A stretch of 48,980 nucleotides of DNA from Clostridia bacterium (GCA_016278615.1 JADQBM010000002.1:1-48980), one strand, 5' to 3'; shown: positions 29,722-46,298, counted from the first letter of the stretch. Made by a program: numbers and translations. Notes: a model not told the origin generated them from the sequence alone.

Positions 29722-31533
29722 TTAACCTGTAAACCAACCTGAAATATAGCTAGACATGGAATTCATCTCTAAGATAGCGGATTCCATAGCAGAAAACTGC
29801 TGATAGTATTTGTTTTCTGCTTCTTCAAGCTTTTCAAGTAATGTATCCACTTGGTCTTCTAAACTATTGATTCTTTTACTTAGAGTGTTTTCTTTTTCTG
29901 TTGTAGTACCTTCCATTCCCGCTTTTTTCAAAAGAGCACCTTTATTGGATCCAGTAGTTTCAACATATTTATCTAAAATGGAATCCATCGTAACCCCTAA
30001 ACCGGATTCTGAGTCAGTAAATAATTTCTTCACGCCATCTGGATTAGATTCAATTGCTTCTATTAATCTGTCTTTATCCACAACCAACTGGCCTCCATTG
30101 GTATGATCTTTAGAAGTAGTAATACCTAAATCCATAAGGTTAATTCCCAAAGTACTACTGGTTGCAAAAAGAGAGCCTCTTAACTCTGTCATAAGTCCAT
30201 TTAATAGAGAATCATTTCTAAGCAACCCAACCTTTGCCTTCTCTTCCCAAATCTCTATTTCCTCATCCGTCATCTCTTCTTTTTGAGCATCTGTTAAAGG
30301 TCCATAATCTCGGTCTCGTTCTTCTTTGACTAAATTATTTATATTATTTATTAATTTATTATACTGATCCACAAAATTCAGTATTCTTTCTTCCGTATCT
30401 GTTGTATCTGTTTTAACAGTAACCGTGATTTCAGAGGTTGTGTTTTCATTGAGTTCATATTGTACGCCATCAATGGTAAAAGAGTTACTGCTTCGAGTCG
30501 TCGTGACACCATCCAGTGTAAAAGTAGCATCCGCTCCAGTTTGAGCATGTCCAGTATCGCTACTAAAATCAATCCCTATTCCCGAAGATAAAAAAGTCCC
30601 TGTTAGATCTTCAAATTGAATTTGATTATTAGCCCCTTCACTATCGGAAACTAATTTGAAAGTATTGGTAAGTTCGCTGTAACTAAGAGTTACATTGGCT
30701 TTTATGCTACTATTGACTTCATACATGAGATTCTGTACTGTGTCACCGGTTTTATCAAAAGTAAAGGTTTCTCCATTAATGCTAAAGCTTATGGCATCGC
30801 CCCCACCGAAAATATCGTTGGCAAAATTAGCGTCCCCAAGAGTTGCTGATTTGTTTAGAACATTTTTATCTCCTGAGGAAAATCCCAGAGAGGTTAATAC
30901 GGTATCTCCTTCATTTGTATCAAAAACTTTAAAGACATGCCCTGAGGATTCAAAGGACAGTTCGCTTCCCGCTGTTCCTACTGTGACGATTCCTGCCCCA
31001 AAAGCTGCATCAATTTTACTCTGTAAATCACTTGTTAAATCACCTATGATTCCGTATCCACCCTCTAATGTGATGGTCTTTTTCGTCCCATCTAAGATTA
31101 CATCAATGGTATCGCCGCTATTAATATCCCCCAGCGACAAACCCGATCCTTCCATGGAAGCAATATCACTGCCTGTCCATATATCATTTAACGCTTTAGT
31201 GACGTTGCTGATGGTGTGCGTCCCTGCTGTAGCAGAATTGGTGGCAGAAGCTGTTACTGCAGAGGCAGTCGAACCACTTATGGTGGCCTCTGCTGAAAGT
31301 GAGTTAAATGCACGACTATTCATTAAATAGGTATCTTGATTGAGATCGTCAAAAAATGTATCTTGAAAGCTGGTAATTTCACTGATAATTTCTCTATAGG
31401 CTTCTTGCTGCCATTGGAGAGTTTTTAAACTTTTCTCCGCTTCATCTACCTTTGTTTGCTTTGTTGTTAACATCCCTTTAACCATACTGTCAATATCCAT
31501 GCCTGAAGCCAGTCCTGTTAGTCTTGCAGTCAT
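29722..31533 (-). CDS. fliD: FliD, filament cap protein
   Basis: A 603-residue cap protein. The N-terminus RLTGLASGMDIDSMVKGMLTTK and the C-terminal coiled-coil pair (LSKRINSLEDQVDTLLEKLEEAENKYYQQFSAMESAI) are the FliD_N and FliD_C markers. The variable middle is rich in S, T and G. It caps the filament and guides flagellin folding. It has its own sigma-D promoter and heads the late operon fliD-fliT-flaG-fliS. Confidence 0.95.
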   Translation of the reverse strand: MTARLTGLASGMDIDSMVKGMLTTKQTKVDEAEKSLKTLQWQQEAYREIISEITSFQDTFFDDLNQDTYLMNSRAFNSLSAEATISGSTASAVTASATNSATAGTHTISNVTKALNDIWTGSDIASMEGSGLSLGDINSGDTIDVILDGTKKTITLEGGYGIIGDLTSDLQSKIDAAFGAGIVTVGTAGSELSFESSGHVFKVFDTNEGDTVLTSLGFSSGDKNVLNKSATLGDANFANDIFGGGDAISFSINGETFTFDKTGDTVQNLMYEVNSSIKANVTLSYSELTNTFKLVSDSEGANNQIQFEDLTGTFLSSGIGIDFSSDTGHAQTGADATFTLDGVTTTRSSNSFTIDGVQYELNENTTSEITVTVKTDTTDTEERILNFVDQYNKLINNINNLVKEERDRDYGPLTDAQKEEMTDEEIEIWEEKAKVGLLRNDSLLNGLMTELRGSLFATSSTLGINLMDLGITTSKDHTNGGQLVVDKDRLIEAIESNPDGVKKLFTDSESGLGVTMDSILDKYVETTGSNKGALLKKAGMEGTTTEKENTLSKRINSLEDQVDTLLEKLEEAENKYYQQFSAMESAILEMNSMSSYISGWFTG

Positions 31534-31600
31534 TTCATCACCTTCTTACTAAAATTTATATAAAAATTACAAAATCAAATATATTTTAACTTATTATTTA

Positions 31601-31627
31601 TTATCGGATGTTTATTTGATTTTTTTA
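31601..31627 (-). promoter_or_regulatory. sigma-D promoter of the fliD operon
   Basis: On the minus strand TAAA, a spacer of exactly 15, and TCCGATAA stand about 70 bases before the fliD start. This is close to the sigma-28 consensus TAAA-N15-GCCGATAT. Confidence 0.8.
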
Positions 31628-31756
31628 GTTTTTTTGATTTGTTAAACGTATAAATTTTGAAATGATAGCTTTTTAATGTGAATATAGTAGCAGAACTGCA
31701 TTTTGACAGATAATATAAATGAATCCTCTTCTAGTCCCATGTAATATAAAAATACA

Positions 31757-31778
31757 AGGGTTTAAAAAATTAACCCCT
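31757..31778 (-). terminator. weak candidate terminator after the glycan island
   Basis: GGGTTAA and TTAAACCC pair imperfectly around a short loop and are followed by TTGTATTTTTAT on the minus strand. It lies about 95 bases after the last island gene. The rest of the 339-bp gap 31534-31872 is AT-rich and holds the fliD promoter; I see no gene in it. Confidence 0.4.
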
Positions 31779-31872
31779 GCAATCCTCATTTTTGATCCTA
31801 TTTTTACATCTCTATAATAGGAATTTTACATCTGTTACTAAAACCGAATTTAGTATTTTAAAGGCGCTCTAA

Positions 31873-33411
31873 CTATTCGTGATCGCTCTTTATCTTATCC
31901 AAGCATTTATACACATGGGCTTTATTCTGGCTCTCAATATTCTCTGCGATTCTAACCCATAGTTCTAAGTCCGGATTTTGTATAACATCATCCAATTTGC
32001 CATCCATAAAAACTGTCTTGTCCTCATCCCACAAACCAAAAAACTCATCTGCTGAATTGCAGGCAGATATACCATCATAACCGGCAATTTTTAAAGCCTT
32101 GGCTCTTGTATTGAATAGAACCATTTTATCTTTTAATTCAGAAATGCTAAATCTATATAATACGCCTGGGTTTAGTATTATTGTCTTAAAGCGCTCTAAT
32201 AACTCGACGCACAATTTTGTATCTTCATCTATGAGGCAAACCCAATCCTTGGCACTCGATAGTTTAATTGCTTTGTTTAATGTCCTTCCCCACTGGTTCA
32301 TGGTTGTTGAAGTTGTATATATATTTGATTTGCTTGATACTGTTTTTATAAAGTCATTATAAATATAACTTTCTGATGCTAGAACCACTGAATTAAAAGC
32401 TTTAGTATAACTGTCTATCTTGTTTTCTAGTATTTCCTTTGAGTTACAGAAAATCACTGCATCAATAGTTTTAGGATTAAGCACTGTATTTAATCTTGAT
32501 ATCCTTTCTTGAAAATCAGGGAGGTAACGATTAATTGTATCCGGCATTTCTTCACCAGTGCTCTGCAAATTTTTTATACTCAAAATATTAACTTTATTTC
32601 TTTTTTGCTTCGGACTTCCTACTTCTTTAAGTTTTTCAAAAAGAGTTTTGGAAACATCATCTATTTCTTCATATGAGAAGCGTCCTTTGTTTAGTAATGC
32701 ACCTCCACATAGTTCACACCAATTCAGTTGATCTCCGAAGTCTTTTGGATCACGCTTCCACCACCCTGGCTCAATAGGCCAGCCCCCTGGACCATCAAAA
32801 AGCATATCCAAAGCGCCTGCAATTTCACAAAAGAAAGCACCCTTTGGTGTAATTGTTGCACTCCACATGTTTTGAAACCAACATTTATCTCGGATTTCTA
32901 TCCATTTATCATCTGAAACACCTACATCTTTTCTACTGATAAGTAGAGGTTGGTGTCGTGAAGGGTTCTGATGATCATTAATGCATTGATAACTAAACAC
33001 ATCTTGAATTAGTTCGAAGTGCTCATAATAATTATTACAAAGAGATGTCCATAATCCGGGCCCTTTTCTGTCGTTTAAAGTTTCGTCTAAGTAAAAATTT
33101 CTGTCTCTAATGTACTTTATGAAGTTCCTTATAGGTTTTGTTATAGGAGGCAACTTAACCTTTGAAGGGTATTGTTCCCCTATATATTGTACAAAGCGTT
33201 GAAACTGGGGATGTATTGTCGGTTCACCTCCCATTATGCCAATTGTTCTATCGAAATCCTTTAATGAATCCACCGCACGCGTAAAGGTCTCCCAATCCAT
33301 GAAAAACGGCTTTTTATGATGTCCACAAAAACGCGTACAATTGGAACATTGATTGATACATGCATTGGTTATATCTATTTGTATGATTCTCATATCCTTG
33401 GGTGACTTCAT
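31873..33411 (-). CDS. radical SAM protein with C-terminal glycosyltransferase-like domain
   Basis: A 512-residue two-part protein. Residues 1 to about 260 are a radical SAM enzyme: the Fe-S motif is C18-x3-C22-x2-C25 and GGEPTIHPQF stands at 61-70. Later Cys (FFCEIAG near 195, WCELCGG near 232-235) may bind a second cluster. Residues about 310-510 look like a GT-A fold: DAVIFCNS, GRTLNKAIKL and WVCLIDEDTKL with D395-E396-D397. A radical SAM/GT fusion is unusual, and its reaction is unknown. It is the last gene of the island, which points to a modified sugar or peptide on flagellin. Confidence 0.75.
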   Translation of the reverse strand: MKSPKDMRIIQIDITNACINQCSNCTRFCGHHKKPFFMDWETFTRAVDSLKDFDRTIGIMGGEPTIHPQFQRFVQYIGEQYPSKVKLPPITKPIRNFIKYIRDRNFYLDETLNDRKGPGLWTSLCNNYYEHFELIQDVFSYQCINDHQNPSRHQPLLISRKDVGVSDDKWIEIRDKCWFQNMWSATITPKGAFFCEIAGALDMLFDGPGGWPIEPGWWKRDPKDFGDQLNWCELCGGALLNKGRFSYEEIDDVSKTLFEKLKEVGSPKQKRNKVNILSIKNLQSTGEEMPDTINRYLPDFQERISRLNTVLNPKTIDAVIFCNSKEILENKIDSYTKAFNSVVLASESYIYNDFIKTVSSKSNIYTTSTTMNQWGRTLNKAIKLSSAKDWVCLIDEDTKLCVELLERFKTIILNPGVLYRFSISELKDKMVLFNTRAKALKIAGYDGISACNSADEFFGLWDEDKTVFMDGKLDDVIQNPDLELWVRIAENIESQNKAHVYKCLDKIKSDHE

Positions 33412-33423
33412 AATAGCTCCTCC

Positions 33424-34374
33424 TCAAAAGGTCTTCTCTAGATGCTTTTTGATAAGCTTTTTTTCCCTATTGGTTGTAAAAGAAGTGTTCCAAAATTCAT
33501 CATAATGGTTGCGTATGTGATTCATCATTAAATCATATTGCTCTATGCAGTCTTCACATCCAAACGTGACTATTTTATCACACATGGAAATCATAAAAGA
33601 CCATTCAGAGTATCTTGCTCTGGGTATAATCTCTGGAACCCTCTCGGAAAGATACTGAGTTCTTTTTTTATACATTAAAAGATATTCCTCCAGCAACTCA
33701 GGTGTTAGATTGTTCGAGTGAATAAATCCTGTCATATTACCGCCATGCTTCCTGAAATGATAAAGAGGTGTTCCTTTTGCTACAATCCTATTTGCATTGG
33801 CAAATGCTTTGTAAATCACATGAATATCATCTACCAACATACCTTCTATAAACCGTATGCCATTAAACAGCCTTTTTCTAAAAAGTTTTGTAGGAGGTGC
33901 CACATTATATTTTTCCCGCTTCAAAAGTTCGTCAAGTCCTTTAATTTTATCCAATATTAGAAGATCCTCATATATGTAATACGGTTCTAATCTATCTTCA
34001 AAATCATTCCAACTACCGCACATGGAAATATCTGCATCGTGCTCTTCAGTGAGATTCCAAAGATGTTCAAGCATTCCTTCCTCACAGTAATCATCATCAT
34101 CTACTATGGTGACATACTCACAAGAAGCTGCATCAAGCCCTGCATTTCTTCCTTGGGCCGCTCCATTGTTTTTTTCAATATTAACTAATTTTATCCTATT
34201 ATCTTTTTCTGCATACTGGCTACAAATATCCCTAGTTCCATCCGTAGACCCGTTATTTATTAAAATAAGTTCAAAGTCAATGAAAGTTTGGCATAGGACA
34301 CTTTCCAGTGAACGTTTTAGATAATGCTCACGATTATAAGTGACAAGTATGATGCTAATTGAAGGTTTTGTCAT
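33424..34374 (-). CDS. family 2 glycosyltransferase
   Basis: A 316-residue GT2 enzyme. It starts SISIILVTYNREHYLKRSLESVLCQTF, then LILINNGSTDGTRDI, NNGAAQGRNAGLDAA and IVDDDDYCEEGMLEH, where DDDD gives the metal-binding aspartates. No membrane span is seen, so it acts in the cytoplasm on an unknown acceptor. It lies 12 bp from the radical SAM fusion gene and 7 bp after another GT2 gene. Donor and acceptor are not predictable. Confidence 0.9.
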   Translation of the reverse strand: MTKPSISIILVTYNREHYLKRSLESVLCQTFIDFELILINNGSTDGTRDICSQYAEKDNRIKLVNIEKNNGAAQGRNAGLDAASCEYVTIVDDDDYCEEGMLEHLWNLTEEHDADISMCGSWNDFEDRLEPYYIYEDLLILDKIKGLDELLKREKYNVAPPTKLFRKRLFNGIRFIEGMLVDDIHVIYKAFANANRIVAKGTPLYHFRKHGGNMTGFIHSNNLTPELLEEYLLMYKKRTQYLSERVPEIIPRARYSEWSFMISMCDKIVTFGCEDCIEQYDLMMNHIRNHYDEFWNTSFTTNREKKLIKKHLEKTF

Positions 34375-34381
34375 TTTTTAA

Positions 34382-35704
34382 CTACTCCTTGATAGCAATA
34401 TTCTCCATAGGAATACCTAGTTTTAATAACTGCTCTTTTAAAACTGGTTTAAGTTCATCATATATTGTTGAAATAATAACATATATATTTCTATTTTCAC
34501 ATTTATCTAAAAGCCTCAAATCATCAGGCCGCTGGCATTTTATCCCCGCTATCATAGTATTATTTTTTCTTGTATCATTATCAAGAAATCCGCAAACATT
34601 AAATCCTGAATCCATAAGGATTCGGGCAACTGATTCTCCTTCATTTCCACTAGGAAAAATATAAATATTTTCACCTTTAATAGATTCCATTTGTGATAAT
34701 AACTTAGCTTTCCTATAGGCACAGTATATATAAATACCTTCGAATATCCCAAAGTTTCGAATGAAGTCGCAAATTTTTTTTATTTCAGAGTGGTTAATTT
34801 TATTAAGCATTGATAAGAGGTTCGGACCGCTTTCAACCATTTTTGTCATTTGAGTTATGCTTTCATACGATAACACATCGACTCCCGAAGAGAATAACTT
34901 AAACAGAAGTGTTATACGAGAATAAATATACTCCCTTCTTATCCCTTTGTATGATTCTGCTAACGGCAATAATATCCAGAAAGTATAGAATAAATCAAAA
35001 TAATGTCCTTCTGTGACTTGACTAGTTATTCCATTTTTAGCACGAGTTCTATAACAATAAAATGGCTTTTCATAATAATAAATAGATTTTGCCTTTACCA
35101 GTATTCGTGTTGTAGTATAAACATCACCATAATAATTAGATGGAATCTCTTTTGAGTAAAATAGTTTTTTTGTATCATTGGCCATCATAAAAATACTTTT
35201 ATTATATATATATCGCCATTGTACCATATGAAAATTCGGCAGGTTCATTATATACTTAAGAGCATTTGAATAAGTGCTCTTATTTATTTTTTCCGCGCAT
35301 ATGTTTGCATCACGAACATTCTTTGCTCCATTCTCTGGATAGCACTTAAACCCTCCCATAATCACATCCGGAGTTTTTTCTTTAATTATCTTTATTATGT
35401 CTGAGTAACATCCTTTTGAAACGAAGTCATCGCCATCCAAGATATGTATGTATTCACCCTTTGCTTCAATAATTCCTACTCGATGTGCTCTACCGATAAT
35501 ACTTTCTCCTTCTAATTTTATATAATTTATATGGCTATATTTTCGAGCATATGCTTCACAAATCTCACGACTTCTATCTGTAGATACATTGTCTACAAGG
35601 ACAATTTCATAATCTTTAAATTCCTGATCAATAACACTTTTTAAACATTCTTCAATATAATTTTCTAAATTAAAAACAGTAATGATAATACTCAATACAG
35701 GCAT
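34382..35704 (-). CDS. family 2 glycosyltransferase with C-terminal Rossmann-like domain
   Basis: A 440-residue protein. The first part is GT2 (LSIIITVFNLENYIEECLKSVI, ILDGDDFVSKG). The last 97 residues form a small Rossmann-like domain (IYIFPSGNEGESVARIL, then FLDNDTRKNNTMIAG). The same kind of domain stands at the N-terminus of three neighbouring proteins. The domain may bind a nucleotide or dinucleotide, or serve as a docking module; this is inference. Confidence 0.85.
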   Translation of the reverse strand: MPVLSIIITVFNLENYIEECLKSVIDQEFKDYEIVLVDNVSTDRSREICEAYARKYSHINYIKLEGESIIGRAHRVGIIEAKGEYIHILDGDDFVSKGCYSDIIKIIKEKTPDVIMGGFKCYPENGAKNVRDANICAEKINKSTYSNALKYIMNLPNFHMVQWRYIYNKSIFMMANDTKKLFYSKEIPSNYYGDVYTTTRILVKAKSIYYYEKPFYCYRTRAKNGITSQVTEGHYFDLFYTFWILLPLAESYKGIRREYIYSRITLLFKLFSSGVDVLSYESITQMTKMVESGPNLLSMLNKINHSEIKKICDFIRNFGIFEGIYIYCAYRKAKLLSQMESIKGENIYIFPSGNEGESVARILMDSGFNVCGFLDNDTRKNNTMIAGIKCQRPDDLRLLDKCENRNIYVIISTIYDELKPVLKEQLLKLGIPMENIAIKE

Positions 35705-35718
35705 TTTTCAGTTCCTTT

Positions 35719-36972
35719 CTATAATACATATCTACAATCTATGATTGTCTTATCAGGATATATCTCGTTGACATTTAAAAATTCTTGCCATGCAGTCAAG
35801 ATAACTAGCACATCTGCTCTTTTTTGTATCTCTTCTAAACTGGCACAATAAATCAGTTTGAACTCTTCATTATCCTTTTTAAAAGCTTCATTGGCAATAG
35901 GATCATAAGCCAATAAATTATGATACCCCGCCTCTATAAGCTTTGCTATAATTTTTCCTGAAGCACTATCCCTTACATCATCAGAATCAGGTTTAAATGA
36001 TAACCCTAGTATTCCTATATTGTCTGAAGGAGATAGAATCTTACATATTTTATGTGCCATGAAATCAGGCATAGATTCATTGGTTTCAATTACTTTTTTA
36101 AGAATCATGGGTTCAAATCCTTTTTCCAAAGAAGCCGCATACATAGCCTGTGTATCCTTCGGTAGGCAATAACCTCCATATCCACAACCAGGGTATACGT
36201 AAGAAGCCATATTACACCCGCCCCAGCGTTTGTCTATATGCAAAACCTTAAATGCATCTTTAATATCAATATCTCCTATTACATCTCCTATTTTGGACAT
36301 TTCATTTGCATAGCTAATCATAGTTGATAATAGTGTATTTGAAAGATATTTAATGAATTCAGCAGTGTTTAATGACACTGCAAAAAAAGGTGCATTAAAC
36401 TCACGGTAGAGAGTTTGCAGCATTTGTGAAGATTTATCATCACAAACCCCACACACAATTCGATCAGCATTTATAAAGTCGTCCCAGCATCTTCCTTCAC
36501 GTAAAAACTCTGGGTTATTTGAAATACCAAAAGCCTTTCCAGGAATAAGGCCCCTTTCTCTAAGGTAAGAAGTCACCTTCTCTTGCGTGGTGGAAGGTGG
36601 AACAGTCGATTTAATGACCATAACACGATATTTCCCATCGTTCAAGATATCTGAAAACATATTTATAGCTGAATAAATGTATTTTAGATCAGCCTGCCCA
36701 TTTGCTCCACAAGGTGTCCCAACACATAAAAATATGAAATCACTCTGCCGCACTGCATCTATGGGGTTTTCTACTAAGAAAAATTTATTATCGAGATGCC
36801 TTGTAAGAGCCTCATTCAGTCCAGGCTCCATAAAGGGGATTACTCCCTTTATAATCATTTCCATCCTCTCATGATTTACATCAAAGCCAAAGGTGGTGTG
36901 TCCTTTTTCTGCAAAACCTAAAGCTGTTGTAAGTCCAACGAATCCAAGACCAAATACTGTCACTTTGTACAT
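35719..36972 (-). CDS. UDP-glucose/GDP-mannose dehydrogenase family protein (UDP-glucose 6-dehydrogenase-like)
   Basis: A 417-residue nucleotide-sugar dehydrogenase. The NAD motif is GLGFVG (residues 8-13), followed by FLCVGTPCG, IKSTVPPSTT, NNPEFLREG and the catalytic GCGYGGYCLPKD with Cys269. FKPDSDDVRDSAS stands near the end. It should oxidise UDP-glucose to UDP-glucuronate with two NAD+. Other hexose donors are possible. The UXS-like SDR in the same island would use this product. Confidence 0.88.
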   Translation of the reverse strand: MYKVTVFGLGFVGLTTALGFAEKGHTTFGFDVNHERMEMIIKGVIPFMEPGLNEALTRHLDNKFFLVENPIDAVRQSDFIFLCVGTPCGANGQADLKYIYSAINMFSDILNDGKYRVMVIKSTVPPSTTQEKVTSYLRERGLIPGKAFGISNNPEFLREGRCWDDFINADRIVCGVCDDKSSQMLQTLYREFNAPFFAVSLNTAEFIKYLSNTLLSTMISYANEMSKIGDVIGDIDIKDAFKVLHIDKRWGGCNMASYVYPGCGYGGYCLPKDTQAMYAASLEKGFEPMILKKVIETNESMPDFMAHKICKILSPSDNIGILGLSFKPDSDDVRDSASGKIIAKLIEAGYHNLLAYDPIANEAFKKDNEEFKLIYCASLEEIQKRADVLVILTAWQEFLNVNEIYPDKTIIDCRYVL

Positions 36973-36987
36973 AGTTAGTTCTCCTTT

Positions 36988-38079
36988 TTATTCCTCTACA
37001 ACTGCATACAATACTGTTTCAGTTCGTGCTGTACTATAATGCCTAATATACAACTTGTATTCTGGAACAAGTTCTTTAATGTATAAAGGTATTTCTACAA
37101 TATCAGACAGTTTATGGTAAATACAAATAGCCAACTTTGGTTTATATCTTTGAATTGTCTGTTTAGCACCCCTCAATGCTTCAAGTTCTGAGCCCTCGAT
37201 ATCCATTTTAATAAACGTTACAGGCACATCTTCTAATTCCTCATCTATCGAAGTAACGAGAATTTCTATGTCTCCATTTTTTCCTACTTTGCTTGATCCA
37301 TCATCTTTTGAAACGAAAGACAGTGTCTTCTTTCTATTCCAAAGCCCATAAGGAAAGAGTTCAATATTCTTATATCTAGATAATTTTTCTTTAAATTCAT
37401 TTTGCTTTTTTTCTTCAGGTTCAAAAGAATATATTTTCTTGTATTGTCCCTTTGTCTGTCTTATAAACTCCTCTACTGTATCTCCTATATATGCCCCACA
37501 ATCCACAAATATTTCATGTTCCGATAATTTAATTATGTCTGAATCAAAATACTGCGGAGAACTACTTCTCAAAGGAATAAGGTATTTTGCATCAGCAGAT
37601 ATTTTATAATTAATTATATGATAAAACAATTGTTCCGAGAGCTCATCAGATAAAAAACGATACACTTTATCAAACATACTAAAATTTTTGCTAACATATT
37701 TAAAATAATTATTATATTCGTCAATAAACAATACATCAAATGCCACTATTGGTTTTTCCAGCATATTGTTTTCTTTTAATTGGTTTAAAATTTCATCGTA
37801 ATACATTATGGAAGTAATACTGATATAACTATCTCCATATAACCTCTTTAAATCATCAAAATCAATTACAGGAATTCCTTCAATAAGCATGCCTCGTTTC
37901 ATTGGATTGTTATCACAAAATGAAACAGATAATACGTTTACTTCATTTATCATTCTTAAGTATGTAACACCCCAATTACCGGAACCAAATAGAATAATTG
38001 AAGACTTTCTCTTTTTTAAATCAAGAAGCTCTTGTTTTGGTTTTTTTTCTAATTTGTCTAATAAAAAGAAATGTGACAT
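36988..38079 (-). CDS. FkbM-family methyltransferase with N-terminal Rossmann-like domain, copy 1
   Basis: A 363-residue protein. Residues about 27-110 are a Rossmann-like domain (IILFGSGNWG at 28-37, DNNPMKRG at 56-63). The rest is an FkbM methyltransferase: EIFVDCGAYIGDTVEEF, YSFEPEEKKQNEF, FIKMDIEGSELEALRGAK and PKLAICIYHK. FkbM enzymes O-methylate sugars or related groups. I start at the second ATG (GGAG six bases before). The next gene upstream is a paralogue. Confidence 0.88.
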   Translation of the reverse strand: MSHFFLLDKLEKKPKQELLDLKKRKSSIILFGSGNWGVTYLRMINEVNVLSVSFCDNNPMKRGMLIEGIPVIDFDDLKRLYGDSYISITSIMYYDEILNQLKENNMLEKPIVAFDVLFIDEYNNYFKYVSKNFSMFDKVYRFLSDELSEQLFYHIINYKISADAKYLIPLRSSSPQYFDSDIIKLSEHEIFVDCGAYIGDTVEEFIRQTKGQYKKIYSFEPEEKKQNEFKEKLSRYKNIELFPYGLWNRKKTLSFVSKDDGSSKVGKNGDIEILVTSIDEELEDVPVTFIKMDIEGSELEALRGAKQTIQRYKPKLAICIYHKLSDIVEIPLYIKELVPEYKLYIRHYSTARTETVLYAVVEE

Positions 38080-38146
38080 TGGCATCTCCTTTATCTCCTA
38101 ATTTTTATACCTTAACCTTGTACAATATAGTATTTTGTGCGGTAGT

Positions 38147-39211
38147 TTAATCTGTAACTGCATACAATACAGTTTCATATATGCTCTCTCCATAATGCCT
38201 TAAATATAGTTTGTATTCGGGGACAATACTCTTCAAATATTTTGGTATATTTATGATATCAAGCGGTTTATGATAAACGCATATTGCGAGTTTCGGTTTA
38301 TATTTCTCAATAGTCATTTTTGCCCCTTTTAATGCCTCTAATTCTGCACCTTGAATATCTAATTTTATAAAAGTTGCAGTCTTGTTATTTAATACTTTAT
38401 CTATAGATGTAACGTTAACTTTAATATTCCCATCATCACTTAACATGCTTCCTGCTGTATTTCTAGCATCAAAATTCAAAACAGCATTTTCATGCCACAA
38501 ACCATATGGCAACAGCTGCATTTTATTATTATTTAATGAGAATTTGTCGAATTCTTTATGTTTGCTTTCTTCTGGCTCAAAGGCATATATTTTATTAAAC
38601 TTTCCGTTTGTTCTTTTTATAAATGCCTCAAGCGTGTCACCAGTAAAGGCGCCTCCGTCAATAAAAATTTCATTATCTGAAAGATTTATAATTTCTTCGT
38701 CAAAATATTGTAAATGAATACTTTTAAACGGAATAAGCCATTTAGGATTCATCGTTATCGAATACATAATTCTGTTATGAAAGATTTCTCTAGATAGTTC
38801 TTCATCAAATAGACTGTATGCTTTTTCATATTCTTCTTTAAACATAGCAAGTAGATAAGTTACATCACTTTCAAAATAAAACAGCCCATCTTTAATAAGT
38901 TGTTCTGCAATCTCTTTTTTTGCATCTAAAGTAGCAATTATCACAACGCTATTATTGAACTTTTCTAAAAGCAGTTCATAACTTATTACTGGTAATCCAT
39001 TGAAAGTTTTACCTTGCTTTTGGGGGTTATTATCACAAAAAAAATCCGGCTTAATCCCTGCATCTTTCAACCCTCTCAAAACATGAACCGCATTTTTCCC
39101 TGCACCAAAAAGAATAAGCGGCGACTGCTGCTCTTTTAATAAGCTGCTATTCCTTTTAAACGTTCCTCCATCATTTATATTACTGACAATCAAATCATAT
39201 ATTTTTCCCAA
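38147..39211 (-). CDS. FkbM-family methyltransferase with N-terminal Rossmann-like domain, copy 2
   Basis: A 354-residue paralogue of the following gene. It has LILFGAGKNA and DNNPQKQG (60-67) in the N-domain, then EIFIDGGAFTGDTLEAF, YAFEPEESKHKEF, FIKLDIQGAELEALKGAK and PKLAICVYHK. The start is TTG, preceded by AAGGAAGTG. The two copies keep the same architecture but differ widely in sequence, so they probably methylate different positions or acceptors. Confidence 0.88.
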   Translation of the reverse strand: MGKIYDLIVSNINDGGTFKRNSSLLKEQQSPLILFGAGKNAVHVLRGLKDAGIKPDFFCDNNPQKQGKTFNGLPVISYELLLEKFNNSVVIIATLDAKKEIAEQLIKDGLFYFESDVTYLLAMFKEEYEKAYSLFDEELSREIFHNRIMYSITMNPKWLIPFKSIHLQYFDEEIINLSDNEIFIDGGAFTGDTLEAFIKRTNGKFNKIYAFEPEESKHKEFDKFSLNNNKMQLLPYGLWHENAVLNFDARNTAGSMLSDDGNIKVNVTSIDKVLNNKTATFIKLDIQGAELEALKGAKMTIEKYKPKLAICVYHKPLDIINIPKYLKSIVPEYKLYLRHYGESIYETVLYAVTD

Positions 39212-39247
39212 AATATCACTTCCTTCTTATAATAAGTAAGATATAAA

Positions 39248-40468
39248 TCATTTGTCCTGCACACCAGGTGTCACCTTCGAGAGAGTATTTGCTTTACCAA
39301 AGCTATTGCAATAATCACAAGCTGTTAGAACATCCGTATTAAAAATAAATTGTTTCAACTTATTTCTGAGTTTCTGGTTTGACAAAGAACTATCCAAAAT
39401 ATTTATATAATCACCATCCTCTTCTGGAATCATACCCATGTTCATCCCATGTGCCGAGCGAGGGCAAAGGTAATAGTAGCCATTCCTTAAAGTGTTGAAG
39501 TTTTTATTGGCTGAGCAATTTATAAAATTGTCAACATTTACATCATATTTCCTTCCTCTTTTCTCCATCAACCCTAAGTTCATCCATTCATCATTTTCTT
39601 TGCCTGAAATACAATATATCCCGTATTCTTGACATTTTCTTACTATATCTATTTTTTTTGATGAAAGCTCTTTATAATTACTGATATAAATAATTGCTTT
39701 ACATTGTGCCAAAGCTTCAAATACTTCTTCATTTGGTATAATAGTTCCATTTGTAATTATTTCAATTTGCATGATATTATTTGCAATAGATAATTCTCTC
39801 AAAATATCGGCAAACTGGGGGTGTAAGAAGGGTTCCCCCCCCATAATACGTAGTAATTCTATAGCATCAACCGATTGTATTACTTTTTCTATTGATTTTA
39901 CTAATATTTCTTTATCATAGTGAACGGGCTGTTGATAATATTGCATTCCGTTCGCGCAAAACCTACATTTAAGTGTACACTTCTCCGTTATACATAATTC
40001 TAAAGAATTGAGTACAAACATATCCCGGCCGCCATTTTGATTGAAAGTCATAGAAATAAGCCGCATAATTTCACCTGCTTCATCAGCTGGTAGTTCCTTA
40101 TACAGCTTATATTTCAAAAAAAGATGTGCCAAACTATCAATAGTCATAATATTCATAAAGCCTAACTGAGCTAACTGAATTCTTAAGATATCATAAATAT
40201 CTTTTGAGGCAACACAAATAAAAATATTAGCGTCAGGATATCGACTTTTTATCTCATCTGGTGATAAAATAGATAATTCATAAAAAATAGTTCCTTGTTT
40301 TTGCTTGTTGTTGTCTCCAAAACAAACTGGTCTTAAATCCAAATACTCAAGTAATTTCAGCGCTAGCAACCCTGCACTTGAAGCCCCAAAAAGTACTATA
40401 GGGGTATTACTGCTCTTAAGTTTGTTCAATATTTGCTCAATTTCTCTTTCGTATTTTTCCAATATCAT
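39248..40468 (-). CDS. radical SAM protein with N-terminal Rossmann-like domain
   Basis: A 406-residue protein. Residues about 23-110 carry the island's Rossmann-like domain (IVLFGASSAG, DNNKQKQG at 52-59). The radical SAM core has C164-x3-C168-x2-C171 and MGGEPFLHPQF. A further Cys set follows (CSANKNF, YLCPRS, ACDYC near the end), which may bind an auxiliary cluster as in SPASM-like proteins. It shares GGEPxxHPQF with the other radical SAM protein of the island. The reaction is unknown. Confidence 0.8.
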   Translation of the reverse strand: MILEKYEREIEQILNKLKSSNTPIVLFGASSAGLLALKLLEYLDLRPVCFGDNNKQKQGTIFYELSILSPDEIKSRYPDANIFICVASKDIYDILRIQLAQLGFMNIMTIDSLAHLFLKYKLYKELPADEAGEIMRLISMTFNQNGGRDMFVLNSLELCITEKCTLKCRFCANGMQYYQQPVHYDKEILVKSIEKVIQSVDAIELLRIMGGEPFLHPQFADILRELSIANNIMQIEIITNGTIIPNEEVFEALAQCKAIIYISNYKELSSKKIDIVRKCQEYGIYCISGKENDEWMNLGLMEKRGRKYDVNVDNFINCSANKNFNTLRNGYYYLCPRSAHGMNMGMIPEEDGDYINILDSSLSNQKLRNKLKQFIFNTDVLTACDYCNSFGKANTLSKVTPGVQDK

Positions 40469-40493
40469 CTTGTGTTTTCCCTTCTTAACCTTT

Positions 40494-42197
40494 CTAAATC
40501 ATTTGAGAAATCCGCTTATTTATATCTGCACTAAACATCTCATCATTGCTGTTACTAATAGCACGTTGGTAACAATACTTAGCCCTTTTAAACGCCCCAA
40601 TTGCTTCAAAAATATCGCCACAAATTGCCAAAATATCTGGGTCATCATTCCAAAAAACTCTTGCAACTTCGGCCGTTTCTACAGCTATTTCTTTCTCTCC
40701 TATTTGCCAAGATATGTACATTTTGAAATACAAACCCTCACGGTCTAATATACTGTTTTGGAGAATATGAACCATTATCGGGACTGCATCCTCGAAATTC
40801 CCTTCACTAACAAAGTTATTAAGTTTTATTTTCAATTCGTTGACTTTATTCTTATCTTTATCGGTCTGTATCTTTGGTAAAGTCTCAATCACTTTTTTTA
40901 TTGAATCTGATAGCTTTTGCTCAACCGCTATTCTTTCGAAATCCTCATTAACAATTTCTCTCAAAATATCTGGACGTTTTAAAAGAGACACAAGACAACC
41001 TGAATTTCGTTTTAATACTTTTTTCAAACCCAAAGGCATAGCCGAGCTGTATTCAATCAAGTAGTTAATTCCCCAGTGATATTTGTTCTCAGTATCACAG
41101 ATTGCAGACAATAAAAGCGCCATCCAATTTGAAATTTCATGGGAAACATTTTTTTCCATCGCTCTGTATATTCTATCAACAAAAAAGTTTCCTAATTTAG
41201 AAATATCCATTGCAGTCGTTTTTCTAGAAACCATCTTTGCACTTTCTTCCACTATTGTTCCAACTTTTTTTTGATTTTGAGATGCCAAGGCATAGTTGCA
41301 AAAAATATCGTTTGTAACGATGCTCTGAATCATATTCAATCTATCATATAAGCAGGCCTTTTCATTGTGAGCTGCATTTTTCAAGCAGTCACTTATGGAA
41401 CCAAAGTGTACGTTAAGAAGAAAGTCAACCCTCTCTTTATCCAATGCATTCCATTCTTTGAGAAGTTCTATTCCTTCATTATAAAGGCAATCACATTCAA
41501 GTACTCGGTTTAAGGTTACATTTGAATTATAAATGGAACTTTCATGAATACGGTAGTGATGGAGTGCTTTATCAATGGAAACAAAAGACTGGCATTTGCG
41601 TAGATAACGAAGCACCGCAAAAGTGTCTGACCCACTTAACAGCCATTGTGGTCTATCGAAAGCAAATGGTGCATGTTCAAGATAAAAATCCGTACGATAA
41701 AGTTTCGCCCATAATGGGCGAAAAGAACCATAGAGATCAATAAATTTCTCAACTATTTCATTAATATCCTTAGTTGACAGCTCTATTGGAATACGCGTAG
41801 ATACTGAATGTGGGTTTTCATTTAAAAACATTTCCGTTCCACAGATAACCATATCTGCCTTATTGTTTTCAGCGGCACGATACATGATTTTTACAAAATC
41901 TTTATCTAAATAATCATCTGCATCCAGATACGCATAATACTCACCGTTTGGATGAATCCATTCTTGCGCGTATTCTGGATTTAACACAGTATTCTTTTCA
42001 TTCTTTCTAAATATGATGCGATTATCTTCTTTTGCAAAACGTCTGCAAATCTCACCCGTGTTGTCTGTAGATGCATTATCATAAAGCATAAGTTCAATAT
42101 TGCTCACAGATTGAGTTAAAATACTGTTAATGCTTTTTTCAATATATTTTTCTGCATTATATGCCTGCATATAAAATGTAACATAAGGTTTTGTCAT
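40494..42197 (-). CDS. family 2 glycosyltransferase with C-terminal helical repeats
   Basis: A 567-residue protein. The GT2 domain occupies about the first 230 residues (PYVTFYMQAYNAEKYIEKSI, LMLYDNASTDNTGEI, AYLDADDYLDKDF). The rest is helical and ends in TPR-like units (GNFEDAVPIMVHILQ, GDIFEAIGAFKRAKYCYQRAI). TPR tails could hold an acceptor protein such as flagellin. I start at ATG preceded by GGCGGG; a TTG eight codons upstream is also open. Confidence 0.85.
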   Translation of the reverse strand: MTKPYVTFYMQAYNAEKYIEKSINSILTQSVSNIELMLYDNASTDNTGEICRRFAKEDNRIIFRKNEKNTVLNPEYAQEWIHPNGEYYAYLDADDYLDKDFVKIMYRAAENNKADMVICGTEMFLNENPHSVSTRIPIELSTKDINEIVEKFIDLYGSFRPLWAKLYRTDFYLEHAPFAFDRPQWLLSGSDTFAVLRYLRKCQSFVSIDKALHHYRIHESSIYNSNVTLNRVLECDCLYNEGIELLKEWNALDKERVDFLLNVHFGSISDCLKNAAHNEKACLYDRLNMIQSIVTNDIFCNYALASQNQKKVGTIVEESAKMVSRKTTAMDISKLGNFFVDRIYRAMEKNVSHEISNWMALLLSAICDTENKYHWGINYLIEYSSAMPLGLKKVLKRNSGCLVSLLKRPDILREIVNEDFERIAVEQKLSDSIKKVIETLPKIQTDKDKNKVNELKIKLNNFVSEGNFEDAVPIMVHILQNSILDREGLYFKMYISWQIGEKEIAVETAEVARVFWNDDPDILAICGDIFEAIGAFKRAKYCYQRAISNSNDEMFSADINKRISQMI

Positions 42198-42233
42198 ATA
42201 ATATTTCCCGCCTTTAGTCAAAGTAGAATATAT

Positions 42234-43328
42234 TTACCAAAAGTATTCTCTTCTATTACTCTCTTTAAGGTATTGCAAATATCTTTGTATACCCTCTTTG
42301 ATATGCACTTGAGGCTCATATTGAAGCAGCCTTTTCGCCTTAGTAATATCTGGGCAACGTCGATTTGGATTATCTGTCAAATATTCCTGATCTGTGTGTG
42401 TTTTAAAGGAAATCTTTCCAGTATAGCTATGTCGCTCACGTCCTATTTCCTGATAGAGTCTTGCAAGCTGTAAAATGGTAAGCTCAGGACCATCCGCCCC
42501 AATATTGAAAATGTCAAATGCACCAAATACGGCACATTTTATGTAACCTACGGTTGCATCAGGAATATAATCAAAAGTACGCGTCGGTTTGCCATCTGAA
42601 TATAAAACAATATCTTCATTATCAATAATTGCCTTTGCAAAATCCGCAACCACTCTTTGGTCATTGATTCTCATTCCAGGACCGAAGTTATTAAACGGGC
42701 GCACCACTGTAACCGGTATGCCATACTGGCGTGCATAATTGTAGCAAAGGGTTTCCCCGAACCGTTTTGACTCATCATAGCATGCCCTGGGTCCACATGT
42801 GTTCACATTCCCGAAATAGCTTTCCGGAGTGGGAATTTTAGAAGGTTCAGGGTCTCCATATATTTCGCTACTAGAATAGAAAAGAAACCCTTTTAGCAAC
42901 CTTTCTTTAAAGAAATCCAGTAGCCGACGAAGCCCTGCAACATCTGCATCTATTGTTTCAATAGGATGAAGTCTGTAATATATGGGGGAAGCAAGTGATG
43001 CCATATGAAAGATGATATCTGCCTTTTTTGCAAATGATAAATCGCAAGTAATAATGTCAAGCTCTCTTAAGTCAAATAACGGGTTTTGCCGTATCCTTTC
43101 CATCCATTGGGGTTTACCAAACATATAATTATCTACGCCATATACTTTTTTTATGCCTAATTCCTCTCCATATGTATGGAAAAAATGGAGAAGCGTATAG
43201 CCCAAAGAGCCAGCAAAGCCAGTTACCAAAATAACTGAATCCTTAAATTTTTCTTTCTCTTTCTTCGACAGTGACTTATATATTAGTGCCACATCTTCTT
43301 TCGTTATTGATGAAATACTTTGTAGCAT
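42234..43328 (-). CDS. extended SDR, UDP-glucuronate decarboxylase (UXS)-like
   Basis: A 364-residue short-chain dehydrogenase. The NAD motif is GFAGSLG (37-43), a changed form of GxxGxxG. SSSEIYGDP and the catalytic YDESK (Y184, K188) follow. The pattern ASLASPIYYRLHPIET and SYFGNVNTCGPRACYDESKRFGE is close to UDP-glucuronate decarboxylases, which make UDP-xylose. A nearby UDP-glucose dehydrogenase supports this, while the adjoining cytidylyltransferase suggests a CDP-sugar. AGGAGGAAGG precedes the chosen ATG. Confidence 0.8.
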   Translation of the reverse strand: MLQSISSITKEDVALIYKSLSKKEKEKFKDSVILVTGFAGSLGYTLLHFFHTYGEELGIKKVYGVDNYMFGKPQWMERIRQNPLFDLRELDIITCDLSFAKKADIIFHMASLASPIYYRLHPIETIDADVAGLRRLLDFFKERLLKGFLFYSSSEIYGDPEPSKIPTPESYFGNVNTCGPRACYDESKRFGETLCYNYARQYGIPVTVVRPFNNFGPGMRINDQRVVADFAKAIIDNEDIVLYSDGKPTRTFDYIPDATVGYIKCAVFGAFDIFNIGADGPELTILQLARLYQEIGRERHSYTGKISFKTHTDQEYLTDNPNRRCPDITKAKRLLQYEPQVHIKEGIQRYLQYLKESNRREYFW

Positions 43329-43342
43329 TATCCTTCCTCCTG

Positions 43343-44119
43343 TTACCATACTTTCCATGGTGCTTGTTCTTCATTCCATTGTTGCTCAAGTGCATTTCTA
43401 TCCCTTTGAGTATCCATGCACTGCCAAAACCCATGATGTTTAAATGCATTTAGCTTACCCTCTCTAGCCAGTAAAGGTAAGGTATACTGTTCAAATACTG
43501 TATAATCATTTACTATAAAATTAAAAACTTCTGGTTCTGCAATCATAAAGCCAGCATTAATCCAGCCCCCATCTTCTTTTGCTTTCTCTACAAAGCGATC
43601 TATTCTATTTGAATCATCATCAATATCAAGAACACCAAATCTTCCCCCTGGTTGAATGGCCGTTAGGGTTAAAAAGCTTTTGGATTTCATGTGGTGGGTT
43701 TCAAGAGCTTTTAAGTCAATATTCGAGACGCCATCCCCATATGTGAGCATAAAACGTTCGTCTCCAATGTATTTTTGGATCCTCTTTATTCTTCCTCCTG
43801 TCATGGAATCTAGGCCCGTATCTACAAGGGTAACACTCCAAGGTTCTGATACATTGTTATGTATGGTCATCTTATTGTTGTTGGTAAAGTCAAATGTAAC
43901 ATCCGAAGTATGAAGATAGTAATCAGCAAAAAATTCTTTTATCATGTAGCCTTTATAACCAAGGCAAATCACAAAATCATTGAATCCATAATAGGAATAG
44001 TACTTCATAATATGCCATAAAATCGGTCTGTCTCCGATTTCTATCATTGGTTTTGGTCTAAGATGAGATTCTTCACTGATACGTGTTCCATATCCTCCTG
44101 CTAAAATCACGACTTTCAT
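43343..44119 (-). CDS. rfbF: glucose-1-phosphate cytidylyltransferase (RfbF-like)
   Basis: A 258-residue nucleotidyltransferase that should make CDP-glucose from CTP and glucose 1-phosphate. It shows MKVVILAGGYGTRI, LRPKPMIEIGDRPILWHIMKYYS, MLTYGDGVSNID, GRFGVLDID and WINAGFMIAEPEVF, as in RfbF. No RfbG-type CDP-glucose dehydratase is next to it; a UXS-like SDR is. The final donor is therefore open. Confidence 0.9.
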   Translation of the reverse strand: MKVVILAGGYGTRISEESHLRPKPMIEIGDRPILWHIMKYYSYYGFNDFVICLGYKGYMIKEFFADYYLHTSDVTFDFTNNNKMTIHNNVSEPWSVTLVDTGLDSMTGGRIKRIQKYIGDERFMLTYGDGVSNIDLKALETHHMKSKSFLTLTAIQPGGRFGVLDIDDDSNRIDRFVEKAKEDGGWINAGFMIAEPEVFNFIVNDYTVFEQYTLPLLAREGKLNAFKHHGFWQCMDTQRDRNALEQQWNEEQAPWKVW

Positions 44120-44154
44120 AGCTTTCCTCCATCAATTCAAATTGCTTATATTTT

Positions 44155-46071
44155 TCAATAATTGGCTGTTAATCTACAAATTTTATCCTTCAAATTATTT
44201 TGAACATCCTTTTCTTTTATCCACTCAAGGTACTGAATGGGCTCATAATTATTGTTTTCAAACAAAAGTGCCTGCTCAAAGGAATCCACACTGTCTTCAT
44301 ATGCTTTCATATGGTAGTAGCAAAAACCCATTTTACAATAAGCTTGTCCTTTTTGTTCCATTCCACTGCTTTGCCTTATAGCTAATTTCTTGAAATAATC
44401 TACAGCCAAGTCATAGTATTCATTGTCTTTGAGTATATCTCCGATGGCTTCAAAAGACTCTATCATCAAATCAGGTGTTCTTGACATAAACCTATGAAAA
44501 ACTTGTTTGTTTTCAAAAGGGAAGAGTTCCTTTAAAAGAATTTGATAGCATTCTATTTCTTCATCAAGAGAATCAGAATGTTTTTTTCCCATAAAATAAA
44601 CATCCAATATTTTATGGTATTTACTGCTAAGCTGTTGTTTGTTCTTTTTATACCAGTCCGAATAATCTCCATAAATAAGGGATATAACCGTATACAGTTC
44701 ATTTTCATCATTTTTTTCTTTTAAGTAACGAGAAAACGACATCTCTAAGGATTTAGTTGCATCTCCATTTAATAGCAAAGCAATTGCCATAAGATTACCG
44801 TAATCATCATACTTGCTGTTCCAGTTTTTAATAAAGTAATAAAAGAAAGGTGTTTTAACCTTTAGTTTTGCAAGATTTATGGATAGAAATTCTATGTCTT
44901 TAAATTCTTTTAAGTTATAAATACTGTTTAAGAGCTGAATCATCTCACTATGACCTTTGTTTTTTGTCATGCTGATGATGCGATCAAATGATGCTTCATA
45001 ATATTTGTTTGTTTTCACAGATTCTAGGAAATACTCAAATGCTTGATCATGATTCCCTTTTAAAAAATATATTTCGCCTATAGTATAAAGGACTTTATCT
45101 AAAGATCTTTGGAACTTATTGCTATAAAAATAATGATATTTTTTTTGAAGGTTGATTGTATCTTTAAAACTCTTTTGTGCTTGTTCAAATTTCCCTGATT
45201 TAAAAAAAAACTCTGCTTCATTTTTTTTAACTTCCGGGTGAAAGGGAAATCGTTTCAGGCTTTCAGAAATCGTATTATAGATATCATTATCTGTATAGTC
45301 GTCTTTCATAAATGACATGGCTTTGCTTATATATATGTAAGTTCTAAATACCTGAGGAAGGGTCTGAAGCATTTTCTCATAATCTTTGCTTTTCATAAAA
45401 ATATCTGCAAAATGTATAACTTCTGCATATTTTTTTAAAGGAAAGCAAGTTTCTACCATATAGAAATAAGTTAAGACATCCACTTCTTCCTTTGCTTCTT
45501 CTTCCTTTAAGAATTTCAAATTTCTTTCTAATTTTTCTTCAATAATATCGCTTGAATAGCCTGTATGATATATTTGGACATTCTCGGTCTGGAAAACATT
45601 CAGAAACCTTCCGTCTTTTTTGGGAGCTTCATGTATCCTGCCAACAAAACGGATATCCTGTTTGTTTCTAAACACTCTTAAAGCAGGTGCAATCTCTATG
45701 ATTCTGTTCTCTTTAGTATCAATATTATAAATGGGAGATATTATCGCCTCATATTTTTGCTTTTTATCTATTTTTTTAAGAATTTTTTTCAATTCAAAAA
45801 TAGATGCATCTGTAAAGTATTCATCTGCATCAAGAAAAATTATCCAATCGCCATTGGAATGGTCTAATGCATAATTTCTTGGAGCTGAAAAATCATCATT
45901 CCAAGGTTTATGTAGCACTTTTGCGCCATGAGTTTCTGCAATTCTAATTGTATTATCCGTAGACCCCGTATCTACTAAAATTATTTCATCAACGATTTCT
46001 TTATAGCTGTTAATACACTTTTCTATGTTTTGGCTTTCGTTTCTTGCAATCATGCATGCGGAGATCTTCAT
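44155..46071 (-). CDS. large family 2 glycosyltransferase with TPR domain
   Basis: A 638-residue protein, first gene of the island after hag. The GT2 part (MKISACMIARNESQNIEKCI, ILVDTGSTDNTIRIAE, GDWIIFLDADEYF) covers about 1-230. Several TPR repeats follow (IGEIYFLKGNHDQAFEYFLES, DLAVDYFKKLAIRQ, GFCYYHMKAYEDSVDSFEQAL). Such GT-TPR proteins next to flagellin often add the first sugar to it; here that is inference. A sigma-D promoter precedes it. I start at ATG four bases after GAGGAA; a TTG four codons upstream is open. Confidence 0.88.
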   Translation of the reverse strand: MKISACMIARNESQNIEKCINSYKEIVDEIILVDTGSTDNTIRIAETHGAKVLHKPWNDDFSAPRNYALDHSNGDWIIFLDADEYFTDASIFELKKILKKIDKKQKYEAIISPIYNIDTKENRIIEIAPALRVFRNKQDIRFVGRIHEAPKKDGRFLNVFQTENVQIYHTGYSSDIIEEKLERNLKFLKEEEAKEEVDVLTYFYMVETCFPLKKYAEVIHFADIFMKSKDYEKMLQTLPQVFRTYIYISKAMSFMKDDYTDNDIYNTISESLKRFPFHPEVKKNEAEFFFKSGKFEQAQKSFKDTINLQKKYHYFYSNKFQRSLDKVLYTIGEIYFLKGNHDQAFEYFLESVKTNKYYEASFDRIISMTKNKGHSEMIQLLNSIYNLKEFKDIEFLSINLAKLKVKTPFFYYFIKNWNSKYDDYGNLMAIALLLNGDATKSLEMSFSRYLKEKNDENELYTVISLIYGDYSDWYKKNKQQLSSKYHKILDVYFMGKKHSDSLDEEIECYQILLKELFPFENKQVFHRFMSRTPDLMIESFEAIGDILKDNEYYDLAVDYFKKLAIRQSSGMEQKGQAYCKMGFCYYHMKAYEDSVDSFEQALLFENNNYEPIQYLEWIKEKDVQNNLKDKICRLTANY

Positions 46072-46106
46072 TACATTCCTCAATTCTTAGCTATTCTATA
46101 ATAATA

Positions 46107-46133
46107 TTATCGACATATTATTTTATTATTTTA
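46107..46133 (-). promoter_or_regulatory. sigma-D promoter of the glycan island
   Basis: On the minus strand TAAA, exactly 15 bases, and GTCGATAA, one base away from GCCGATAA. It lies about 35 bases before the first glycosyltransferase start and after the flagellin terminator. Confidence 0.7.
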
Positions 46134-46257
46134 CCTTAAAGAACAAAAAAATTCAATCTCCTCCATCATGTTATTAATGTAAGAAATAGGACCACTGGTT
46201 AATGTGAATACACCAAACCATACATCTGAAACCATACATCATAGATCTTACATGATG

Positions 46258-46285
46258 ACAAAAAAAAACCCCATAAAGGGGTTTT
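46258..46285 (-). terminator. Rho-independent terminator of the flagellin gene
   Basis: On the minus strand AAAACCCC-TTTAT-GGGGTTTT is an 8-bp stem with a T-rich tail, 14 bases after the hag stop codon. Confidence 0.9.
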
Positions 46286-46298
46286 AGAAAAAATTTTC

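Follow-up and report, generated by a model that had tools for sequence, protein, structure and literature searches.

A small Rossmann-like accessory domain fused to three types of enzyme in a glycan island of a clostridial flagellar cluster

Why do four closely spaced genes, encoding three different types of enzyme, carry the same small domain? The question is raised by a window of 48,980 nucleotides (the whole stretch of DNA analyzed; Clostridia bacterium, GCA_016278615.1 JADQBM010000002.1:1-48980), in which a glycan island lies within a flagellar gene cluster. Two FkbM-family methyltransferases (FkbM1 and FkbM2) and a radical SAM protein (rSAM2) of this island have the domain at the N-terminus, while a glycosyltransferase of family 2 (GT2b) has it at the C-terminus. 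The original prediction had recognized the domain by a G-rich turn followed by a DNN-type motif, both of which we located in all four proteins at the predicted places (Table 1), and had suggested a shared ligand or a docking scaffold. Our analysis showed the domain to be a widespread but poorly annotated accessory of bacterial surface-sugar enzymes, which resembles nucleotide-binding domains and is not peculiar to this island. Because the Pfam and NCBIfam models score it below their cut-offs, the annotation of the proteins that carry it covers only the catalytic half.

Homology, predicted fold and conserved signature

The six pairwise Smith-Waterman scores of the four segments ranged from 69 to 145, compared with means of 28-30 for shuffled sequences (z = 8.5-22.8), and none of the 1000 shuffles reached any of these scores. 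The alignment spans the whole length of the domain, i.e. the last approx. 110 residues of GT2b and the first approx. 125 residues of FkbM1, FkbM2 and rSAM2. The GT2b copy is the most divergent (P replaces the first G), yet it is clearly homologous. Its tail alone matches 3nkl, the N-terminal domain of UDP-D-quinovosamine 4-dehydrogenase (E = 1.8e-4), as does the rSAM2 domain alone (E = 0.011). When a profile of the four copies was run against the 3.5 Mb genome, only these four places were matched at E ≤ 1.

The domain of FkbM2 was modeled with AlphaFold2 from 18 diverse alignment rows, and its core was predicted with confidence (block means of the predicted local distance difference test above 90 across residues 31 to 110). 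In structural comparisons made with VIA-align 2, in which rows at most 1 unit apart count as ties, the model matched 3nkl (Z 11.6, 2.8 Å, 94 residues), CAC2185 (2g6t, Z 11.5), the domain of unknown function (DUF) of WbaP (8t53, Z 11.2, 2.0 Å, 84 residues), PerB (4eaa, Z 10.9), WeeI (Z 10.7), the FkbM crystal structure 2py6 (Z 10.2), Rex (Z approx. 10) and the C-terminal domain of KijD1 (Z 8.8). A sequence-profile search placed the same families on top (3nkl, 1.1e-11; Rex, 4e-6; VioB, 4e-5). In the structure search, full-length GT2b gave GT-A matches throughout, so the tail of this protein was judged by element order and sequence. In an AlphaFold2 model built from GT2 rows only, residues 346-439 are predicted to form β-α-β-β-β-α-β-α-β, the element order of the FkbM2 domain. 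The predicted folds therefore agree rather than being unrelated and, judging from these models and from the full-length homology, all four segments represent a single type of small Rossmann domain, carried by three enzyme types, as had been claimed.

The columns conserved among 253 copies correspond to a nucleotide-binding Rossmann domain, namely G24 (94%), G26 (84%), G/A29 (80%) and, after strand 2, D48 (89%), together with a leucine in the helix following strand 4. This signature is kept in the FkbM, TylF, radical SAM and GT2 classes, the last having a weaker first G (P in about a fifth of the copies, including GT2b). In the island copies, the GxGxxG/A loop and the acidic residue at the end of strand 2 appear as GSGNWG...D (FkbM1), GAGKNA...D (FkbM2), GASSAG...D (rSAM2) and PSGNEG...D (GT2b).

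Distribution and fusion partners

Matches to the domain profile (E ≤ 1e-6) were present in 120 of 247 genomes of the same order, some of them being Rex- or PglF-like by frame length. Fused copies are clustered, at least two of them in 20 kb or less, in no fewer than 13 genomes (G000, G002, G028, G044, G049, G063, G089, G091, G103, G118, G129, G173 and G178); some others (G001, G018) contain a single one. The fusion partners, as assigned with Pfam, include (i) methyltransferases (FkbM, TylF and Methyltransf_11/23/24), (ii) transferases (GT2, GT4, GT32, GT-D, RgpF, CDP-glycerol glycerophosphotransferase and LicD), and (iii) radical SAM, WbsX, WcbI, aldo-keto reductase, FrhB/FdhB, sulfatase, TIM-barrel isomerase and cytidylyltransferase-like proteins. 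Outside this island, the module is fused to at least 15-20 enzyme families. Near full-length matches to the FkbM fusion were found in Paenibacillus, Lachnospiraceae, Goldbacteria, Desulfuromonadales, Nitrospirae, Bacteroidales, Lentisphaeria and others.

The domain has no stretch conserved enough for a domain-only contig scan; the named loci were found with FkbM as the anchor and are therefore ascertained through it. Of the 77 non-redundant loci obtained in this way, 49 carry the domain, 36 at least two copies and 21 at least four. The reuse noticed within one island hence recurs elsewhere beyond chance. The densest case, a glycan locus of Acetatifactor muris (L130:1-21020), has ten domain-bearing genes in 21 kb. 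Many FkbM proteins that lack a profile match start with a divergent Rossmann-like stretch, YGMGNGADMI...FASDxFVRG, which the profile misses (L103, L104, L114, L127, L139, L146, L156 and L166).

In seven loci (L040, L073, L076, L109, L123, L143 and L169), an FkbM copy of the domain lies no more than 10 kb from fliC or fliD, and the trio of FkbM, GT2 and radical SAM fusions recurs in one other island, beside fliF-fliG-fliI in a Lachnospiraceae metagenome-assembled genome (L115). Viral contigs scanned with rSAM2 yielded no relative.

A related cassette was identified near hpf in Paenibacillus vini (L095:6752-18937; here also near secA) and Bacillus sp. FJAT-27264 (L094:6887-15656). It encodes counterparts of RfbF (70-76% identity), the dehydratase (70-72%), the UDP-glucose dehydrogenase (57-62%), GT2a (55%) and FkbM1 (51-52%). 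A GT2b counterpart (34%) is present in P. vini only, and no rSAM2 homologue was found in either cassette. These sequence similarities suggest transfer between Bacilli and Clostridia.

Inheritance of the domain copies

For 110 of 155 domain copies (35 expected), the best match was a copy fused to the same type of enzyme. Where the best match was cross-type, it lay inside the copy's own locus in 0 of 14 cases. Best matches of any kind fell inside the own locus for 22 of 253 copies (4 expected), an excess that could be explained by gene duplicates. Of the four copies of this island, the one on rSAM2 is closest to FkbM copies of other genomes, and the other three are closest to copies that the same enzyme type bears elsewhere. 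Since best matches follow enzyme type and cross-type matches within a locus are absent, the four copies are not duplicates made in the island, and a recent within-island duplication was rejected.

The copies are nevertheless carried together. Of the GT2 proteins neighboring an anchor FkbM with a recognized domain, 25 of 48 carry the domain too, compared with 0 of 13 beside an anchor without one (Fisher p = 4e-4), and the other enzymes carry 2.5 domain copies per locus versus 0.2. This co-carriage is suggestive of a possible coordinated, cluster-level role, with the reservation that the loci are non-independent and may differ in kind.

Proposed function and alternative explanations

The reading that we favor, with a probability of roughly 0.6, is that the domain is a nucleotide- or nucleotide-sugar-binding module that joined each enzyme type early and independently, and that acts in cis. 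The island would have assembled enzymes that already bore it. The nucleotide or nucleotide-sugar would probably be a pyrimidine one, given the CDP-glucose and UDP-uronic-acid-type enzymes of the island. Bound to its own enzyme, the domain could hold an activated substrate, exert nucleotide feedback or support homodimerization. We infer the ligand, the orientation of its pocket, its effect and the action in cis; a module serving its own enzyme is favored because the signature is kept and because the WbaP DUF, the best experimental precedent, and the PglD-type domains offer analogies. The isolated WbaP DUF is stabilized by UMP, UDP and UTP, UMP inhibits WbaP, and the DUF carries most of the dimer contacts (PMC10942596). 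The authors of that study suggest that the DUF may more broadly help to control the flux through glycoconjugate pathways (PMC10942596). Judging by their titles, the PerB and VioB structures contain nucleotide sugars.

Several observations weigh against this proposal. The sulfatase and TIM-barrel isomerase partners have no obvious use of nucleotide sugars and fit substrate holding poorly. GT2b has P in place of the first G, D48 is mostly lost in RgpF-fused copies, and the full set of G, G/S/A, G/A and D is present in only 164 of 253 copies. A purely cis role leaves the co-carriage in loci unexplained. As to the shared ligand of the original prediction, it is plausible if taken broadly to mean a nucleotide, given the retained GxGxxG/A...D.

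Two doubtful alternatives concern the pathway as a whole. As a docking module, the domains would pair mutually or with a common partner, which would keep the members of a single glycan pathway in one assembly. The copies do cluster far beyond chance (four in 6 kb here and nowhere else in the genome, up to ten in other loci), GT2 carriage depends on the state of the anchor FkbM, and the WbaP DUF mediates a dimer (PMC10942596). Docking is, however, at odds with the lack of convergence among the copies of one island, with the conserved nucleotide signature and with the lone fused copies of some genomes; moreover, the co-carriage test is uncorrected for locus relatedness, and the loci with and without the domain on FkbM may differ in their GT2 families. 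The idea of a scaffold that holds the pathway of this island on one acceptor is not supported, as the module is common on many glycan enzymes and its copies are nearest to those of the same type elsewhere. Being present on FkbM, GT2, radical SAM and at least 15 other families of surface-glycan enzymes, in unrelated loci and phyla, it is largely the ubiquitous partner in unrelated settings that the original prediction had regarded as evidence against such a scaffold. The other, similarly doubtful, possibility is a nucleotide sensor common to the whole cohort, i.e. a shared sensing and pairing module through which one by-product or precursor nucleotide might tune or assemble the entire pathway; if so, the one-enzyme feedback of the WbaP DUF would extend to entire pathways.

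It is unlikely that the domain is a ligand-free appendage which serves homo-oligomerization or folding only. The G-loop is variable in some copies, and Rex uses this fold in its dimer contacts. The dimer contacts of the WbaP DUF are made with the same fold (PMC10942596). An interface alone, however, would not need D48 (89%) and the glycine loop, which are kept across unrelated partners. A Rex-like, NAD(H)-binding redox sensor is very unlikely: Rex ranks near the top in both the structural and the profile searches, but the PglD-, WbaP- and PglF-type domains match equally well or better, and nothing indicates that redox state is relevant to the enzymes concerned. Finally, chance resemblance of unrelated segments, which might be suspected since Rossmann motifs are common, can be dismissed, being ruled out by the shuffle test and contradicted by homology along the whole domain in the profile and structure searches, the GT2b model and the search with the GT2b tail.

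For the nucleotide-binding module that we favor, the identity of the ligand would reveal the regulation or organization of flagellin and capsule pathways in clostridia, and the co-carriage makes it testable whether one such module coordinates whole glycan pathways.

Genomic context

The domain-bearing genes lie in one island, within 6 kb, as described previously; they are not strictly neighbors, since a nucleotide sugar dehydrogenase gene, whose product lacks the domain, separates GT2b from FkbM1. FkbM1 and FkbM2 share 45% identity, and by structural matches the catalytic part of GT2b is a TarS/TarP/RmlT-like GT-A domain plus helices. The island also encodes a glucose-1-phosphate cytidylyltransferase (rfbF; TIGR02623, 393 bits), a dehydratase-type epimerase of nucleoside diphosphate sugars, further GT2 enzymes and a second radical SAM protein. 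It appears to be of the flagellin-glycosylation type and, because of its position between the flagellin gene and fliD, is taken to act on flagellin.

Table 1. Features of the glycan island and its flagellar frame (window coordinates; aa, amino acids)
Feature	Position	Strand	Remarks
Genomic frame, fliD to flagellin	29722..47087	-	encloses the glycan island
fliD	29722-31533	-	one edge of the glycan island
Glycan island between fliD and flagellin	31873-46083	-	within the flagellar cluster
GT2b, glycosyltransferase family 2	34382..35704	-	PF00535 4.8e-30; Rossmann domain at C-terminus
GT2b domain, C-terminal Rossmann-like, aa 326-440	34385..34729	-	PSGNEGE...FLDNDTRKNN
Nucleotide sugar dehydrogenase, UDP-glucose dehydrogenase-type	35719..36972	-	TIGR03026 5.6e-112
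FkbM1, FkbM-family methyltransferase	36988..38085	-	PF05050 7.1e-19
FkbM1 domain, N-terminal Rossmann-like, aa 1-130	37696..38085	-	GSGNWG...FCDNNPMKRG
FkbM2, FkbM-family methyltransferase	38147..39211	-	PF05050 1e-14; TTG start as called
FkbM2 domain, N-terminal Rossmann-like, aa 1-125	38837..39211	-	GAGKNA...FCDNNPQKQG
rSAM2, radical SAM protein	39248..40468	-	PF04055 1.3e-15; cluster motif CTLKCRFC
rSAM2 domain, N-terminal Rossmann-like, aa 1-125	40094..40468	-	GASSAG...FGDNNKQKQG
Flagellin gene	46299-47087	-	other edge of the glycan island

Long C-terminal parts were noted in other proteins of the island. In the second radical SAM protein (31873-33411, minus strand; 512 aa), such a part, with no family match, follows a radical SAM start whose residues 14-84 were matched below the Pfam cut-off. 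The GT2 enzymes encoded at 40494-42221 and 44155-46083 (both on the minus strand) are also extended; the latter, whose gene directly adjoins the flagellin gene, contains TPR repeats.

A flagellar island of another locus (L087:5701-8876), upstream of flgC-fliF-fliG-fliI genes, encodes an RfbF-like cytidylyltransferase, a radical SAM protein and a C-methyltransferase with a Methyltransf_14-like C-terminal domain. Its identification as the Clostridioides difficile type A locus with CD0243 was rejected; the gene content differs, so that it provides no functional handle.

Comparison with known systems

The available parts of the reports on flagellin islands with FkbM in Geobacillus (PMC5109656) and Enterobacteriaceae (PMC4875605) make no mention of a Rossmann domain or of such fusions. 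The whole architecture of FkbM1, an N-terminal Rossmann domain followed by the FkbM methyltransferase, is shared by 2py6 of Methylobacillus flagellatus: residues 26-360 align with residues 51-407 of the latter, across both domains in the same order (E = 2.9e-36). The FkbM fusion architecture therefore already has a solved structure, although this protein is proteobacterial, has no function in its title and covers the FkbM fusions only.

The best structural and sequence neighbor is the cytoplasmic DUF of WbaP and PglF (PF13727, "CoA_binding_3"; 3nkl, 8t53), which is likewise an accessory domain on glycoconjugate enzymes. It is placed N-terminally to a phosphoglycosyl transferase or a PglF-type dehydratase, whereas the island copies are on FkbM, radical SAM and GT2 proteins; in addition, WbaP has a swapped β-hairpin through which its DUF dimerizes. 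None of the four proteins matched PF13727 at E ≤ 1. CAC2185 (2g6t) has a fold like that of the FkbM2 domain model, and judging by the names, PF22674 (C2185-like_N) was presumably named after it. PF22674 matched neither the island proteins nor anything genome-wide, in a search whose control was also unmatched; one relative (L084:7798-8961) does pass it (27.9 versus a cut-off of 27).

The N-terminal domains of PglD, NeuD, PerB and VioB (PF17836, TIGR03570), enzymes that act on nucleotide sugars, share the fold and GxGxxG...D with the island domain. The best TIGR03570 score was 29.6 bits (cut-off, 160.8), and none of the four proteins has the C-terminal left-handed β-helix acetyltransferase of the PglD/NeuD type. 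The C-domain of C-methyltransferases (PF08484, KijD1) has in common with the island domain the DxN..KQG signature, the fold and a methyltransferase-accessory role, but the four proteins lack the zinc domain and have another domain order; scores against Methyltransf_14 (PF08484) were 18.1, 18.6 and 23.1 bits (the last for rSAM2), all below the cut-off of 23.5. A Rex-type N-terminal winged helix, or any DNA-binding domain, is absent from the four proteins.

Membership in PF13727, PF17836, PF08484, PF22674 or Rex proper was therefore rejected on the grounds of cut-offs or partner domains. Since the related Pfam and NCBIfam models all score below their curated cut-offs, the domain is a neighboring, divergent subfamily and not a member of a named family. 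The best explanation is that this subfamily belongs to one group with the WbaP/PglF DUF, the PglD/NeuD N-domains, the PF08484 C-domain and the NAD domain of Rex.

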